From the NCBI RefSeq assembly GCF_003841505.1, contig NZ_REGA01000004.1:248001-312000 (forward strand): 64,000 nucleotides of DNA. The letters are read 5' to 3'. Made by a program: the position numbers and the translations under genes. The notes below the pieces were generated by a model that was not told the DNA's origin, did not search any database, and saw nothing but the letters and a program-made list of their open reading frames with translations. The number at the start of each line of letters is the position of its first letter. The stretch's first letter is position 1. The DNA comes from Natrarchaeobius chitinivorans. GTDB lineage: Archaea; Halobacteriota; Halobacteria; Halobacteriales; Natrialbaceae. This document shows positions 39,447 to 48,034 of the stretch, piece by piece.

Positions 39447-39566
39447 ATGTTTCCGAGTATCCGAGCCCTTGGGGGGAACAGTGGCGATTCAGCACTGACA
39501 GAGGCAACACAAGCTGACGTGGATGCTGCAATCGAAGCGCTCGAAACCGATGATGCGGGTGAGTGA
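39447..39566 (+). CDS. 39-residue acidic microprotein
   Basis: Starts MFPSIRALGGNSGDSALTEA and continues with TQADVDAAIEALE, a short amphipathic helix. The helix matches the microprotein at 44182-44361 (EATQEEVDAAMEDVE), so both belong to one undescribed small family. A TATA-like box upstream supports expression. The stop lies next to the right end of a TnpB element, so the 3' end may have been changed by insertion. Confidence 0.5.
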   Translation: MFPSIRALGGNSGDSALTEATQADVDAAIEALETDDAGE

Positions 39567-39577
39567 ACTACCCCACC

Positions 39578-40873
39578 CTACCGCTCGCCTGATGGCTCGC
39601 GCTTGAGGGTGGGGCTTCCTGCTTCCACGACGCGCTTTGCAGGAACCGAATGGGTTCCCGTAGGGAGCGCAGTCTCCACAGGCGTTGATTCGGATCGTCC
39701 CGCTCCTAACTGCTTGATACCGCGAGAAAGGATGTTCCACGCTGCGTTCCAGTCCCTGTCGGCCGTGAATCCACAGGAAGGACAGGAGTGTTCGCGGACC
39801 CACAGTGGTTTGTCGGTCGAGACACCACACGCCGCACACTCTGTGGTAGTGCCGGCCGGATCGACAGCCACGAAGTGCGTGCCTTCGCGTTCGCATTTGT
39901 ACTCGAGCATACGCAGGAACGTTCCCCACGCCGCTCCGGCACGGTTCCGAGAGTTACCGTCAAGTTCGACCAAGCCTTTCGCGTCAAGGTCTTCGACCGC
40001 CACGAGACCGTACTCCCGAGCGTAGTAGTCCGAGAGTTTGTGAAGGAAGTCACGGCGCTTGTTCTTGAGGGTGGCGTGACACTCGGCCACTCGACGGCGT
40101 TGCTTCTCGTAGTTGTTCGACCCGTGTTGCTTCCGCGAGAGCTTCCGTTGCTCTCGCTCGAGCCGTTCTTGCTCGTCCGAGAGGTCAACTGATTCGATCG
40201 CGTGGCCGTCGGTGTCGTGGGCGTACTTCAGGATGCCCACGTCGATACCGACGACGTTCTTCGGCCGGTCGGGCTTTTGCGGTGGCTCTCGGACGACTTC
40301 GACACCGAAGGTGGCGAACCACTCGCCCGTCGGTTCCTTCTTGAGCGTGACCTGCTTGAGTGCGGCGTCATCCCCAGAAATCTCCGATTTCTGATGGGCT
40401 GCACGAGAGCTGTCGCTCTTGTGAACGTCAGGGATCTCTCGGTGGAGCCGGATCGGAATGTCCGCGAGTTTCGAGAGTGACAGCACAGTCTGACCGCCCT
40501 TCTTGTCGAGCTTGAAGCCAGACTGATTGTATGTGAAACTGCGGAAGTCGCGCGGCGGCTTCCACTTGAGTTGGCCGACGCCGTAGCCGTTCTGCTTGAG
40601 CGCAGAAAGGCTACTGAGGTTGTCGAACAGTCGTTCGACGACGGTCTGGAGAACCTTCGAGTACACGTCCGAGAGACCATCCCACCACTTCTTGAGATCG
40701 GGAAGCTCCGACCGAAGTGTGGTCATAGACGGTAACTCGCTGTGGTTCTCTCGGTATTCGTTGAGGCGGTAGCGAGTGTGATTGTACAGTTGCCTACAGA
40801 TATCGCGGTGGCGGTCCAACTCCTCGCGTTGGGTGTCGGACGGCTCGAGGCGATACTTGTAGGTGTAGTACAT
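39578..40873 (-). CDS. tnpB: RNA-guided endonuclease TnpB
   Basis: 431 residues. The RuvC residues are intact: Asp in VVGIDVGILKYA, Glu in LVAVEDLDAKGL and Asp in ADRDWNAAWNILSRG. A zinc finger (CAACGVS and CPSCGF) is present. The N-terminal domain begins MYYTYKYRLEPSDTQREEL, typical of this subgroup. The C-terminus extends past the RuvC Asp by about 45 residues. Its ATG overlaps the stop of the small upstream gene by one base (TGATG), so the two are coupled. The protein appears intact. Confidence 0.92.
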   Translation of the reverse strand: MYYTYKYRLEPSDTQREELDRHRDICRQLYNHTRYRLNEYRENHSELPSMTTLRSELPDLKKWWDGLSDVYSKVLQTVVERLFDNLSSLSALKQNGYGVGQLKWKPPRDFRSFTYNQSGFKLDKKGGQTVLSLSKLADIPIRLHREIPDVHKSDSSRAAHQKSEISGDDAALKQVTLKKEPTGEWFATFGVEVVREPPQKPDRPKNVVGIDVGILKYAHDTDGHAIESVDLSDEQERLEREQRKLSRKQHGSNNYEKQRRRVAECHATLKNKRRDFLHKLSDYYAREYGLVAVEDLDAKGLVELDGNSRNRAGAAWGTFLRMLEYKCEREGTHFVAVDPAGTTTECAACGVSTDKPLWVREHSCPSCGFTADRDWNAAWNILSRGIKQLGAGRSESTPVETALPTGTHSVPAKRVVEAGSPTLKREPSGER

Positions 40874-40995
40874 CAGTTCTCGCGTTCCTCTATGAGTTCG
40901 TCGAGTTGGTCACGGATGAACGACGAGAGATTCAGGTGTTGCTCCTCGATCCACTCATCTTGGTCCTCCCGAATGGTGATAGTCTTCCGTTTCAC
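40873..40995 (-). CDS. Ribbon-helix-helix-like small protein upstream of tnpB
   Basis: 40 residues from the GTG at 40993-40995; GTGs farther upstream would add a few residues. VKRKTITIREDQDEWIEEQ followed by LNLSSFIRDQLDELIEERE fits a strand and two helices of the ribbon-helix-helix DNA-binding fold. Haloarchaeal tnpB genes often carry such a gene just upstream. It may repress the element or bind its ends; the role is untested as far as I know. Confidence 0.7.
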   Translation of the reverse strand: MKRKTITIREDQDEWIEEQHLNLSSFIRDQLDELIEEREN

Positions 40996-41230
40996 CGTAT
41001 GCACATAATGCACTCTGTGCGTAAAACACTGCCGATTGCGTGGGCCTGTGGGCCTGCTGTAGAACAGTCCAAGAAACACGAGCGACGCTGTATCCCCTCC
41101 CTGCTCGCTTCGCTCGCTGAGGAAAGGGGCTTAGCGCCTCAATTCAGCTAAATCGCGATTTGCTTCTCGTCATACTAGAACGGATTAAACATCCATCAGA
41201 CGACCGATTATGTGGAAGCGGCAACTGAGA

Positions 41231-41262
41231 GTGTGATCGAGCCGATCACACAACGTATATGA
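41231..41262 (+). promoter_or_regulatory. Palindromic operator and TATA box before the 7TM gene
   Basis: A perfect 9-base inverted repeat with a 3-base spacer (GTGTGATCG, AGC, complement; 41231-41251) sits directly upstream of a TATA-like GTATATGA (41255-41262). The 7TM ORF begins about 25 bases later, consistent with a leaderless transcript under control of a dimeric regulator. Confidence 0.5.
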
Positions 41263-41284
41263 ATACTGAACAGTAGTATACAGT

Positions 41285-42013
41285 ATGTCGTCTGCGGCGT
41301 GGGTCACGTGGCTGCTGGTGGGAAGTGCCGTCGGTGTCGTTATTTCGACGTATCCGTACCTGGCGACGGTGATCGCCTACCGACAGCGGGACAACGGGTT
41401 GGCATATATCGTTCTTTTGATGGGGGTTGCGATCTGGAACGGGCTGTTCGTCGCTCAAGCGTTGGATCCGGACCCACTCGTGAAGGGGTTTTTTCTCACG
41501 CTCTCGATGGTCGGTGCTGTCTTGACGGCACTGGGGTGGTTCCTCTTTGCGAGTACCGCGAGCACAACGCCGCCGCTCTCACGAGCGCGGCTCCTGTATC
41601 ATCTCGTTGCGGTTCTGGTCGGGGTCGATATCCTCCTCATGGTGACCGCTCCCAGTCACTCGATTTCGTGGACGATACTCCCGGAGAGCGGTCCCCTCTC
41701 GACGTTCGTGATACTCTCCCCGCATGCGGGCTACTGGTTCCATACGGCGTTGCTGATCGCGTTGTTTACGGCGGGCGCAGTGTTGTTTGCCCGTGCCTGG
41801 TGGAACGGCATTGACACCCAGTATACGCGTGCGTACGCCGTGTCCGGACTCCTAACAGCTGTGGCTGTTCTCGTGAGTAACAGCGTTCATCCCGGCGTCA
41901 CGGTCGCCCCGCTTGCTGCGGCGTCACTCACGACGATCGGGTGTGTGCAGGCCTATCAAAAGCGGACCGCGAAGGTACCGATTCTCTGGCGGTGGCTCGA
42001 CCGATCACCGTGA
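41285..42013 (+). CDS. Orphan 7TM sensor protein (histidine-kinase N-terminal type)
   Basis: 242 residues with seven hydrophobic segments and little else. The pattern (AYRQRDNGLAYIVLLMGVAIWN, then LSMVGAVLTALGWFLF, SHSISWTILPESGP) fits the 7TM region found at the N-terminus of haloarchaeal sensor kinases. The kinase domain is absent; the protein ends shortly after the last helix (WRWLDRSP). Either it is a stand-alone sensor or a remnant. A palindromic operator precedes it. Confidence 0.72.
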   Translation: MSSAAWVTWLLVGSAVGVVISTYPYLATVIAYRQRDNGLAYIVLLMGVAIWNGLFVAQALDPDPLVKGFFLTLSMVGAVLTALGWFLFASTASTTPPLSRARLLYHLVAVLVGVDILLMVTAPSHSISWTILPESGPLSTFVILSPHAGYWFHTALLIALFTAGAVLFARAWWNGIDTQYTRAYAVSGLLTAVAVLVSNSVHPGVTVAPLAAASLTTIGCVQAYQKRTAKVPILWRWLDRSP

Positions 42014-42402
42014 GAGTCCTCGTCGTGGCTCCGGCGTTCGATCACCACCCGTCGCGGATTGGGTGAGACGGGAATCGCGATACCAGCGCTGGCATCTTCC
42101 CGTCACCACCGTCGTCGCGTCTCTGTCACCCTCGAGAACAGCGCATCGCCTCAGCTTTTGGACTCAACCGTCACTGTCTCTCCGAAGCCGAGCGACGTTC
42201 TCTCCACTCCCGTTCCAGACGACGGGACCGAAGCCCTCGATGAGCCATGTACGACCAATCGCTCGCGCACGCGATGTAGCACTATATCCCGTGTGTCGTG
42301 AATTCAGCTCAGTCATCACCTGTGTCGCGAATTCAGCTCGTCCCGGGATTTGGGTAGGCCTCAGCCAAACCGGAGGTCCTGGCACCCGCTCGGAACCGAA
42401 CG
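42014..42402. other. Intergenic region, 389 bases
   Basis: No gene recognised. A 20-base direct repeat (TGTGTCGTGAATTCAGCTC) occurs at 42292 and, with one change, 42321. It separates convergent genes. Confidence 0.5.
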
Positions 42403-43341
42403 TTAATCCGCATTCGCCGGGCGCTCTTCTGGGGCTCTCTCACGCGGTTCAGTCCGGTCAGTACGGTCCGGTTCCGCAAGCGGATCCTGAAATCGATCGA
42501 TGATTGAGTGTGCGTCCGGGAGCTCCGGCCCACTGATCGTCCTGCAGAGCGTCCGGGCGCGTTCGACTCGCGTCCGTCGCCACGACTTCTCTCGGCGTTC
42601 GTACGTTCGAACCCCGCGAAGGAAGTCGATCTTCCTGAACTCGGGCCAGTACGGCGTACAGAAAAAGACCGCGGCCTCGTTTCCGTTCGCGTGCCACGGG
42701 AGGAAATTCGACGTCCGCTCGTCCCCACCCGTCCGAATAATCAGATCGACGTCGCGAATCGGGCGCTCGTACAGACGCGCTTCGATCACGTCGACGTCGA
42801 TGTCGTCGGGCTCGAGCGAGCCACGCTCGACGTCGCAGGCGGTGGTTCGGGCCGCCTCGAGGAGCTGATTTCGGCCACCGTACGCGAGGGCGATATTCAG
42901 TGTGAACTGCCCGTACCCCCGGGTTCGGTTCTCGGCGTACCGAGCCGCATCCCGGACTCGAGGTGGGAGTTTGTCGACGTCTCCGATCGCCCGGATTCGA
43001 ACGCGACGCTCGTGTACCTCGGACGTATCCGCGAACTCGCGGAGTTTCGTCTCGATGAGATCGAACAGCGACTCGCGTTCCCCTCGCGGCCGCTCGAAGT
43101 TCTCCGTCGAAAAGGCATACACCGTGAGCTCGCGAACCCCCAGCTCTTCGCACCACTCGAGGACGTCCTCGGTCGTCTGCGCTCCCCGCCGGTGGCCCGC
43201 CGACGGATCGACTCCTCGGTTCCGGGCGTAGCGTCGATTTCCGTCCTGAATTATCGCGACGTGGTCCGGGCAAGAGTCGATAGACCGACGGAGGTGTCGC
43301 TCGTAGATGGTCTCGACGCGTCCCCGCACCCAGTCCCTCAT
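42403..43341 (-). CDS. uppS: Polyprenyl diphosphate synthase (UppS type)
   Basis: 312 residues from the ATG at 43339-43341. It contains HVAIIQDGNRRYARNRG with the catalytic Asp, the LTVYAFSTENFERP motif, LNIALAYGGR and DLIIRTGGDERTSNFLPW. cis-Prenyltransferase that builds long polyprenyl (dolichol-type) diphosphates, the lipid carrier for N-glycans and other surface sugars. The last 45 residues are a charged tail (RTDRTEPRERAPEERP) beyond the family core. It lies about 2.6 kb upstream of the glycan region. Confidence 0.93.
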   Translation of the reverse strand: MRDWVRGRVETIYERHLRRSIDSCPDHVAIIQDGNRRYARNRGVDPSAGHRRGAQTTEDVLEWCEELGVRELTVYAFSTENFERPRGERESLFDLIETKLREFADTSEVHERRVRIRAIGDVDKLPPRVRDAARYAENRTRGYGQFTLNIALAYGGRNQLLEAARTTACDVERGSLEPDDIDVDVIEARLYERPIRDVDLIIRTGGDERTSNFLPWHANGNEAAVFFCTPYWPEFRKIDFLRGVRTYERREKSWRRTRVERARTLCRTISGPELPDAHSIIDRFQDPLAEPDRTDRTEPRERAPEERPANAD

Positions 43342-43707
43342 CAGTATTGTCAAAACAGTCCGAGGATATGTATGTTGTTGTAGGCTCGAGCGGCGACCGG
43401 CTGGCGGGGAGAACTCGAGTCGGCGCTACTCCCAGCCGATCGCGTTCGGGGGGTAGTGGCCGAATCAGCGGATACGGGTTCGAACGCGTTGCTCACGGCG
43501 TCGAACTGACTCCAGGCCAGCCGAAAACGTCGTCTCAATCCGGGCCGGTTTTGAATCCCGCCAGCGGGTCCCGCGCCACGGAGATGGTTCGAGATTCCGT
43601 CGGTCGAACCGTGGTCGGATCTTCGCTTCGGGGTAAATTGAGTGTGGTAAGTGCAATCTCCTGGAACTATTCGGATCAGTTATGGTCATTCAATCGAATG
43701 GATCCGC
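43342..43707. other. Intergenic region, 366 bases
   Basis: No recognisable gene; short frames on both strands only. It contains the uppS promoter region and the promoter of the zinc-ribbon gene. Confidence 0.5.
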
Positions 43708-43908
43708 ATGACCGTTTCAGAGAACCCCGTCAATACGCTCCCGGAACGCTGTGAGAGTTGCGACGGCGTGACCCAGCACGTCGTGACGGTACAACTCATC
43801 ACCGAAGGCGATTCAGCTGACAACAGCCCCTACTCGCGGGAACCGTATCGTATCGCGGAGTGCCAGCGGTGTGGGGAGACACAGACGCTGCGGATGAACG
43901 ACGCCTGA
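43708..43908 (+). CDS. Small zinc beta-ribbon protein (DUF7835 type)
   Basis: 66 residues from the ATG at 43708-43710. Two Cys pairs (ERCESC and ECQRCGE) flank YSREPYRI, the layout of a haloarchaeal zinc beta-ribbon family that I believe is DUF7835. Function unknown. Confidence 0.75.
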   Translation: MTVSENPVNTLPERCESCDGVTQHVVTVQLITEGDSADNSPYSREPYRIAECQRCGETQTLRMNDA

Positions 43909-44181
43909 GACGGGTTACTGCACGTCAGTTCCGGCCCATCCGCGACCCGAGCGACTGGTGGGTCGGGACATCGTTCCAGCGGTCCGTATGAGCCACCGGC
44001 TCTTTGCCGGTTTCGCGATCCGGATGCACGAGAACCGTCTCTCGTCGGGGCTGTCATAGCACAGTTCGGAGCCCCCCTCGGAATTACCCGGAGAACGGGA
44101 AGTACAGGCGAAGGGCTTACCGGAACGGCCAGCGGTGCTCGTTGCAGAGTATTCCATTGGTGATAAGTACAAATAACACAT

Positions 44182-44361
44182 ATGTTCAAGTGGATACAGT
44201 TGTTTGCTTACATGAGAGGGGTTCAAATGGGGGACCAACAAACCACAGCGGACTCGAGTTCGGACAGCACCCTCGAAGAAGCGACGCAGGAAGAAGTCGA
44301 TGCGGCGATGGAAGACGTCGAACAGACCGAAGAGAACGCCGATGACATTCTGATCGCCTAA
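44182..44361 (+). CDS. 59-residue acidic microprotein
   Basis: Starts MFKWIQLFAYMRGVQMGDQQ; ATGs at 44212 and 44227 are possible starts. The core STLEEATQEEVDAAMEDVE matches the microprotein at 39447-39566 (ALTEATQADVDAAIEALE). It is followed 18 bases later by a second tiny gene with a zinc-type motif, so the two form a micro-operon. No known family is recognised. Confidence 0.55.
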   Translation: MFKWIQLFAYMRGVQMGDQQTTADSSSDSTLEEATQEEVDAAMEDVEQTEENADDILIA

Positions 44362-44379
44362 CCGTGAGACACAGGACAG

Positions 44380-44529
44380 ATGAGAGACGAACTCGAGTCG
44401 ACACCGGCCTGTTCCGATGGGGAGCATACGCCCGTCTGGGATCCGAACGAGGGAACGAGCGTCTGCGAAACCTGTGGACGGACAGGAGCTGAAATTGTCA
44501 ACGACCTCGGACACAGTCTGTATCCCTGA
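44380..44529 (+). CDS. 49-residue zinc-type microprotein
   Basis: MRDELESTPACSDGEHTPVW with C11 and H16, then CETCGRTGAE (C33, C36): a likely single zinc site. It follows the acidic microprotein closely and is probably co-transcribed with it. Confidence 0.55.
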   Translation: MRDELESTPACSDGEHTPVWDPNEGTSVCETCGRTGAEIVNDLGHSLYP

Positions 44530-45939
44530 TTTCTGATCCGCGTCACCACTCGCTATGAGTTATTTTGGGCAACAGGTATATGCTTACTCGCATAATTAAT
44601 TGTTATAGCGAGGGTCCGGATGCCTGTCGTTGCCACGACCGAAAAGCGCCCGGACGGACGATCACCCTCGCTACTAACCTCACCGCATCCGATCGAAGCC
44701 GGCTGTCCAAGGACTGGGGGCCTTGGACCGCAACGGCTTTTCGACGTGTACAGCTATCGTGGATAGCCACAGCACCGCTGGAGTGTCCGCTCACTGTCCA
44801 AGGTTTTCCGGATCGCATCGCTCTAGCGCCACGTTTTCAACCAGCCTATGTGCTTGGCTCCGCCAGTTTGTTCGATCGCTCGGCGACACGTCGCTGAAAC
44901 GGACAGCGTCATCCCTTGCCGATGGGACGTCGTCACGGCTTTGGGGGCCGCCGGCCACTCGTTCACTGCGTTCGCTCGCGAGAGCAGTACCACTACTGGC
45001 TCACCACGTTTGCTTGCCGTGTCACGCGACTCCGGCCAGCCCGCTCGTTGGCTTCTTCTGGCCGTGTGAATTGAGTTGCGATCCGGCGGTCGGCTAAGTC
45101 GCTACAGACGAATAAGTGCGGTCCCGGAATGGCGCAATGTATGGTTGACAGCCATTCACGGGACAGCACCCCTTGCCGCTAGTCGGAAATCAAGTTGTTG
45201 GTTAGCGCAATCGGAACCGGCCTCGCGAGAGTCTCTCTCCGACCCCCCAAAGGTAATACGTATGAACTGTCCCGTGCTATTATATACCAGGAACGTATTG
45301 CGTTGAAATGGACGGGGAAAGGGAGCTTCGTCAATAGTCGATCACTCCTGCAATCACTCCTCGTCCCCCCACGTATGTCCACGGCGAGACACGACGCAAT
45401 CGATGGGGTGTAGGGGATGGCGATCGTCTCATCTGTCCGATCGTCTTGCTGGGACAACTAACACCCACCCAGCCCTACGAATCCGTTCCCCGCGACCGCA
45501 TTTATACAGAGAGTCGGTCTTACTGCATCGCCGAAGCGGTCCCGGTCAGTGCGGATTCTCAAGCCCGGTCGGGTCGGGAGCCTCCGCGATCGACTCGGGG
45601 CGCTCGTCGGAACCGGCGCTCGAGCGGTACATCGCGTCCACTCGAGCGCATACCGACTGGTCGCTGATACTGTCGGACAACAGTCAGTGAGCCATCGGTC
45701 GGGACTTCGCGGCCGTCGCCATCGGAGACGGCCCCAGGAGAGTGACCGATCGTCGAACAGTTCTGTCCGGCAGTATGTAACGTGGCCGAACGCAATCTCT
45801 GGCAAGAAATCTCCGACGCTCTCGCCCCACGAAGTCCATTAAGGGAGCGTGTTGAGGCCAGGACAGCATCCGTGTGACAGGTCGATACCGACGGTGGAGT
45901 CCCAGCCAGGCGGTTACTCGTCGGGAGACACCGCGTCAG
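44530..45939. other. Gene-poor region, 1.4 kb
   Basis: No convincing gene. It holds several inverted repeats: TAGCGAGGGT (44606) with ACCCTCGCTA (44664), preceded by an AT-rich box; GTCCAAGG (44705) with CCTTGGAC (44721); CACGGGACAG (45157) with CTGTCCCGTG (45267); and copy 2 of the 108-bp element. The density suggests small mobile element remnants or structured RNAs. ORFs up to 124 codons have unlikely compositions. Confidence 0.5.
45667..45776. repeat. Inverted-repeat element, copy 2 (110 bp)
   Basis: Ends ATACTGTCGGAC and GTCCGGCAGTAT; centre GCGGCCGTCGCCATCGGAG shared exactly with copy 1 at 31960-32067. The closing arm differs by one base (GACGGCCCC). Confidence 0.7.
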
Positions 45940-47851: not shown

Positions 47852-48034
47852 CTACGCTCGGTCGTCGTCCCAGACCTGCACCGCAGGCGTCTCACAGCAG
47901 TCACAGACAGCAGCAGCGTTTCCTTTGTAGGAGTCCCGGACCAGCGTTCCGTCCTCACAGTACGAACAGTTCCCCCCGACGAGCGCGTCGACGACGGTTC
48001 CAGCCGACGGCTCACTTTCCACGAGCTGTTCCAT
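47852..48034 (-). CDS. HVO_A0556-type zinc finger protein
   Basis: 60 residues with NCSYCEDG and VCDCCETP Cys pairs around a short basic loop (RDSYKG). The layout matches a small haloarchaeal zinc finger family named after HVO_A0556 (family name from memory). It is upstream of and co-directional with the epimerase pair. Confidence 0.72.
   Translation of the reverse strand: MEQLVESEPSAGTVVDALVGGNCSYCEDGTLVRDSYKGNAAAVCDCCETPAVQVWDDDRA

Follow-up and report, generated by a model that had tools for sequence, protein, structure and literature searches.

Do two very short open reading frames (ORFs) of the haloarchaeon Natrarchaeobius chitinivorans belong to one protein family, and what might such proteins do? 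We analysed a stretch of 64,000 nucleotides (contig NZ_REGA01000004.1, positions 248,001 to 312,000), hereafter the window, in which an initial annotation had described a 39-residue ORF at 39447 and a 59-residue ORF at 44182 and had proposed a new family of acidic microproteins with a common helix. Both ORFs are present at these positions. The motif they were said to share, E-A-T-Q-x2-V-D-A-A-[IM]-E, was found twice in the window (as DNA, 39501-39536 and 44278-44313) and in 0 of 100 dinucleotide shuffles. A shortened motif gave three matches in the whole 4.57-Mb genome and its reversed control gave none, so that shuffles and reversed control together rule out a chance origin. The third match is the contig C23 copy of the cassette listed in Table 1, zinc gene included, and a fourth member of the host genome, MDEATQEEVEKAILKLEQDEESDILIADE, was found on contig C11 (C, G and L labels denote contigs, genomes and loci).

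A helix microprotein family in Natrialbaceae

We searched with profile A2, whose five rows were taken from G000 (the host), G025 and G056. It matched 50 of the 125 host-family genomes at E<=0.1, in 14 of 29 genera; three of these 50 supplied profile rows, two (G004, G143) look false, and second hits in G136 and G003 also look false on inspection. The homologue search suggested in the initial annotation has therefore returned relatives of the shared helix. A second profile, A3, has 24 rows built from A2 hits, so that its own rows match by construction. At E<=1e-3 it matched 51 of 391 genomes of the class, namely 46 from the host family and five doubtful ones outside it (G184, G246, G280, G348, G392). 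In these five the frame is longer and the helix reads EATDxxV; they may not belong to the family. The 39447 member, which is in neither profile, was still matched by both (E 4.7e-4 with five rows, 3.0e-5 with 24), and 0 of 3000 shuffles reached its score. Named carriers are five species of Natrinema, a genus of Natrialbaceae (among them N. pallidum, N. altunense, N. gari and N. ejinorense), and Halopiger goleimassiliensis. We regard the family as near certain to be real in Natrialbaceae.

The unit common to the family is a single N-capped amphipathic helix, EATQxEVxxAIxxLE. E3, A4, V9, A12 and E17 are invariant in the 24 A3 rows, while T is kept in 23, Q in 22 and I in 23. C-terminal to the helix, many members have a spacer of acidic residues and then a short hydrophobic tail (DEIIIAD, DDLLVGS, DILIA), and columns 44-46 of the aligned members are I, V or L nearly throughout. 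Members most commonly take the form of a stand-alone protein some 30 residues long, M[DE]EATQEEVxEAIxxLE...SDEIIIADx. Such genes open directly with M[DE]EATQ and usually end in the hydrophobic tail, and most matching frames are short ORFs of the same layout. We compared 13 chosen stand-alone genes, and found the proportion of non-synonymous differences (pN) below that of synonymous differences (pS) in 78 of 78 pairs (means 0.20 and 0.63), a comparison that is biased because the genes were gathered by protein similarity.

The conserved tail raises the possibility that the helix peptide is adaptor-like or degron-like, with the tail docking on a protease or chaperone, the helix carrying a client, and the zinc protein described below being one of several clients. 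The stand-alone genes have no fixed neighbours in most genera, which fits such a role. However, the tail is absent from some members (L052, L062, L067, L080), no protease gene was noticed nearby (the neighbours were not scanned for one), and the partner that does recur is a zinc microprotein. We consider an adaptor unlikely.

Many stand-alone copies are preceded by a conserved stretch, TTTTCTC...CTGAATACGCT...TTTA, and a loose upstream pattern was flagged in 24 of 30 upstream regions. When TGAATACGCTN{7,8}TTTA was searched alone in the 125 genomes, 10 matches were obtained, one per genome, while the control gave 0. All 10 lie 37-43 bases before a family ATG. This search ignores protein sequence, and the pattern was derived from these same upstream regions; the finding is therefore its absence elsewhere in the 125 genomes. 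From the sequence, the stand-alone form of about 30 codons often appears to carry a conserved promoter-like element, and TGAATACGCT is a candidate regulatory site.

For the member at 44182, the existence of the ORF was confirmed but its length of 59 residues was not. The start is probably ATG 44227, giving 44 residues, because a stop codon interrupts the upstream frame in the C23 copy and the 44182 ATG falls inside a TATA-like stretch. The 44-residue form contains 15 acidic residues (D/E) and no basic ones (K/R), with an isoelectric point (pI) of 4.05. AlphaFold predicted a single helix over residues 21-36 with low-confidence ends (mean predicted local distance difference test score, pLDDT, 70), as would be expected of a peptide that folds upon a partner.

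The 24 members were also compared with family libraries, and no convincing match was found in Pfam (best E 0.0053), NCBIfam (0.2) or PHROGs (0.058), nor a convincing relative in the PDB; a known family was rejected on this basis. Homologues in many genomes, the predicted helix, the low pI and the lack of a convincing library match bear out the proposal of a new acidic microprotein family. Among the titles found by searches on haloarchaeal small proteins, none concerns the helix family, and five family peptide strings were not found in the papers searched.

Some helix peptides are encoded with a zinc-ribbon protein

An ORF of zinc type begins 18 bases past the stop codon of the second microprotein, as had been reported. 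Its layout is C-x4-H...C-x2-C-G...IVN-x-L...LY. We found weak similarity to the TFIIB ribbon (PF08271) in five of five zinc members (best E 7.4e-5), and the nearest solved chain is PDB 1pft (E 1.1e-4). In contrast to the TFIIB/TFB ribbon, the protein stands alone, at 49 residues, and its first zinc knuckle is altered. It also resembles the CPxCG-related zinc finger microproteins of haloarchaea (PMC2253796, PMC11241148) in being shorter than 70 residues with one CxxCG (CETCG). Their published definition (PMC2253796) places a second Cys/His pair, spaced by 2-3 residues, 7-40 residues away, whereas the other half here is C-x4-H (CSDGEH), with four residues between.

Homologues of the zinc protein are rare. 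They were found in 6 of 391 genomes at E<=1e-5, and strong ones (E<=2e-25) in four genomes, at five places. Together with a gene in G158, all six show a peptide resembling the helix, either next to the zinc protein or apparently fused with it, in three arrangements. The microprotein precedes the zinc gene twice in G000 (window and C23) and in G001, where they overlap (ATGA); the zinc gene precedes and overlaps the microprotein in G007 and G158; and zinc and helix share one frame in G008, an apparent fusion. The helix resemblance is strong in G007 and G158 (0 of 3000 shuffles did as well). When the loci of G001, G007 and G008 were scanned in all six frames (71, 79 and 79 frames), the frame adjacent to or containing the zinc protein was the top helix match in each. 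A protein of G157 (L123) also joins the helix to zinc-ribbon motifs. Variable gene order, gene overlap and one apparent fusion suggest that the helix peptide and the zinc ribbon are physical partners. Binding between them is inferred, as is a role of the pair in transcription.

A proposed small regulatory complex resembling Brz/Brb

In Halobacterium salinarum, Brz/Brb pairs a zinc microprotein with another charged protein of very small size and tunes bop transcription, and the analogous pairs OE2447F/Bp4 and OE3131F/Bp2 were found in both gene orders (PMC2253796, PMC3184054). The present pair is alike in joining a zinc microprotein to a tiny charged partner encoded by an adjacent or overlapping gene (a gap of 18 bases in the window, overlaps in G001, G007 and G158). 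The likeness is one of gene layout. In Halobacterium the Brz/Brb partner is basic and a Bat-type regulator cooperates, whereas the helix partner is acidic and belongs to a family with many stand-alone members. In kind, the system belongs with the zinc-microprotein pairs already known from haloarchaea, as a variant whose partner comes from an acidic family.

Because of the pairing evidence and the Brz/Brb precedent, we tentatively favour a two-protein regulatory module of this type. The helix peptide would bind the zinc protein, stand-alone helix forms would bind related zinc-ribbon or other transcription proteins, and helix and zinc protein would form a small regulatory complex tuning transcription as Brz/Brb does in Halobacterium. 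Among the three roles proposed in the initial annotation, regulator is thus the best fit, while antitoxin-like protein and precursor peptide found no support, the latter in the neighbourhoods viewed.

Several observations weigh against the proposed module. Strong zinc homologues occur in 4 of 391 genomes but the helix in 51, and therefore most helix genes lack such a partner; the stand-alone majority would have to have other partners. In G001 and G008 the peptide resembles the helix weakly (4.8 and 5.2 bits, equalled by 6 of 3000 shuffles), and a frame of the G353 locus (L129) that is unrelated scores on a par with these, at 4.7 bits. Of the two weaker zinc relatives, that of G242 is without a convincing partner and that of G353 has none adjacent. 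G007 and G158 count as one event because they are of one genus with shared flanks. The window zinc protein scores 16.7 bits against a curated PF08271 cut-off of 29, and its single-sequence model (pLDDT 62) is of too low a quality for a fold search. No Bat-type regulator was seen in the ORF lists of four pair loci and C23, which were read by eye; the one PAS protein noticed among them, in G001, was scanned and is a histidine kinase lacking a DNA-binding domain. The host genome lacks the exact promoter pattern, and its C11 copy carries a changed form. Finally, a difference of one base puts the ATG of the C23 copy out of frame with its helix; this copy is a pseudogene, has a TTG start or contains a sequence error.

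Neighbourhoods of family members

Neighbour clusters were judged by eye in 31 loci and 13 wider loci. No neighbour gene recurs in most loci of the stand-alone genes, and the largest cluster of the 31-locus set covers five loci in two genera. PAS or GAF histidine kinases lie close to the G001 pair and to three of the helix genes, those tested (L030, L035, L157); a Pfam scan gave no DNA-binding domain.

An antitoxin function, with the zinc protein or another neighbour as toxin, would account for two small overlapping genes, an acidic partner and a patchy distribution. Toxin-antitoxin-like pairs do occur near two members: a VapB/VapC-like pair (PF02697, PF01850; L150, 2546-3281) downstream of a G103 member, and a nucleotidyltransferase/helix-turn-helix pair (L152, 83-1110) about 2.6 kb from a G028 member. 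However, each of these pairs is complete in itself and was not met again among the loci compared, the VapBC-like pair brings its own antitoxin, and no recurring toxin partner or toxin-like cluster was found in the neighbourhoods inspected. The sole recurring partner of the helix peptide is the zinc microprotein, in variable gene order and in G008 apparently as a single protein, and stand-alone helix genes are common. We consider an antitoxin very unlikely. Still less probable is a precursor of a secreted or modified peptide. Small size is what speaks for it, but inspection by eye showed no signal sequence, conservation falls on the helix itself, and the loci examined showed no obvious maturation genes, although no profile search for such genes was made.

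The ELEEATQ...VGS/IGS subfamily (L156-L161; G031, G109, G107, G007, G158, G051) has FAH-like and hydrolase-like neighbours in five of six loci, all but L160, covering two genera. It looks like a stable chromosomal gene because the same neighbours are kept across both genera. Helix matches at E<=1e-3 (L149-L155) number four in G103 and five in G028, which suggests local expansion. A tail-less member, seen in G054 (MTDDLPEATQQDVEQAIDQLEEDDDAR; L122, about 2840-2900) and also in G159 and G161, overlaps the end of the upstream gene near a DNA-methyltransferase-like gene, and perhaps lies in a provirus or other mobile region. A viral origin was considered for the family and rejected: no relative in viral contigs was confirmed, and phage records gave only two partial matches (48-52% identity). 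Three queries for plasmid carriage gave no match.

The window copies and their mobile-element setting

Table 1. Features of the helix microprotein loci in the window
Feature	Position	Strand	Basis or remark
Second family member, 39 residues; probably ends in tnpB-element sequence in place of its own C-terminus	39447..39566	+	
tnpB insertion sequence	39562..41079	-	Shared terminal sequence from about 39562-39571; tnpB 39578-40873; small upstream ORF 40873-41079; outer limit at 41079 provisional
Cassette copied on contig C23, 80% identity	44156..44732	+	Spans the microprotein gene, the zinc gene and, on the 3' side, some 200 non-coding bases
TATA-like stretch ACACATATGTT, putative promoter ahead of the microprotein gene	44176..44186	+	Sequence inspection; C23 counterpart
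In-frame upstream extension, probably untranslated	44182..44226	+	Frame stopped in C23 (MFKHIQLH, then stop); ATG within the TATA-like stretch
Acidic helix microprotein, 44 residues (MGDQQ...EEATQEEVDAAMEDVEQ...DDILIA)	44227..44361, stop included	+	Profile row; start by C23 comparison
Zinc-ribbon microprotein, 49 residues, partner of 44227	44380..44529	+	18 bases downstream; homologues, weak TFIIB-ribbon similarity

The initial annotation had also placed both microproteins in DNA rich in mobile elements. This setting is not general, as the VGS/IGS subfamily with its constant neighbours indicates. The tnpB product matched NF040570 (guided_TnpB) at E 1.8e-85, and the element end was placed by comparison with copies on C1, C18 and C23. 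The stop codon of the 39447 member (39564-39566) falls in AGTGAACTACCCC, which is identical in the C18 copy, while the closer copy on C1 aligns from 39571 only; the element thus ends at about 39562-39571. Because the stop lies inside element-shared sequence and many relatives have longer tails, the C-terminus was probably cut by the insertion sequence. Naturally short members also occur, so that truncation is likely, yet unproven. On the minus strand, the ORF of 68 residues that ends at the tnpB start (40873-41079) looks DNA-binding by eye and has no Pfam match.

The window copies might therefore be decaying passengers of mobile elements, inert here, with the family functional elsewhere. The probable end of the 39447 member inside the tnpB element points this way, as do the disturbed frame of the C23 copy, which lies near a contig end, and the dispersed repeats of the region. 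On the other hand, 44227 and 44380 both have open frames, and most of the changes that separate the helix part from its C23 counterpart are synonymous. Between window and C23 we counted 10.0 synonymous differences over 16.8 sites and 5.0 non-synonymous ones over 67.2 sites in the microprotein; the zinc protein gave 12.5 over 34.0 and 13.5 over 113.0, respectively. We judge decay to be somewhat unlikely, though with a real chance of being correct.

A structured RNA in the 3' non-coding part of the cassette was considered and set aside: z scores were -2.4 and -2.2, but the two copies fold differently. Further downstream, 45290-45645 is 73% identical to C23 358-700 (L003) and lies inverted relative to the cassette; therefore the block has been rearranged. 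About 120-140 bases within 45046-45218 are also present on C43 and C19 (77-79% identity) and may be a small dispersed repeat. Upstream of the pair, 43708-43908 encodes a DUF7835 protein of 66 residues (E 1.8e-25). On the minus strand, 47852-48034 encodes 60 residues with paired CxxC motifs, possibly another zinc microprotein.

Implications

A bolder version of the regulatory role can be drawn, and we hold it to be quite unlikely. The peptides of about 30 residues would be lineage-specific modulators of transcription initiation, in which the helix clamps TFB-type zinc ribbons; they would act alone from a dedicated promoter or, in a few genomes, beside or fused to a decoy zinc ribbon. If true, the machinery of archaeal transcription initiation would be controlled at the level of peptides.

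The family itself is a protein of about 30 residues, present in some 14 genera and outside the family libraries searched, a type of gene that annotation can miss. Its pairing with a TFIIB-ribbon-like zinc microprotein, in both gene orders and apparently once as a fusion, leads to a testable prediction of a two-peptide complex. The tentatively favoured regulatory module would carry the Brz/Brb principle beyond a few operons, to a family of many members.

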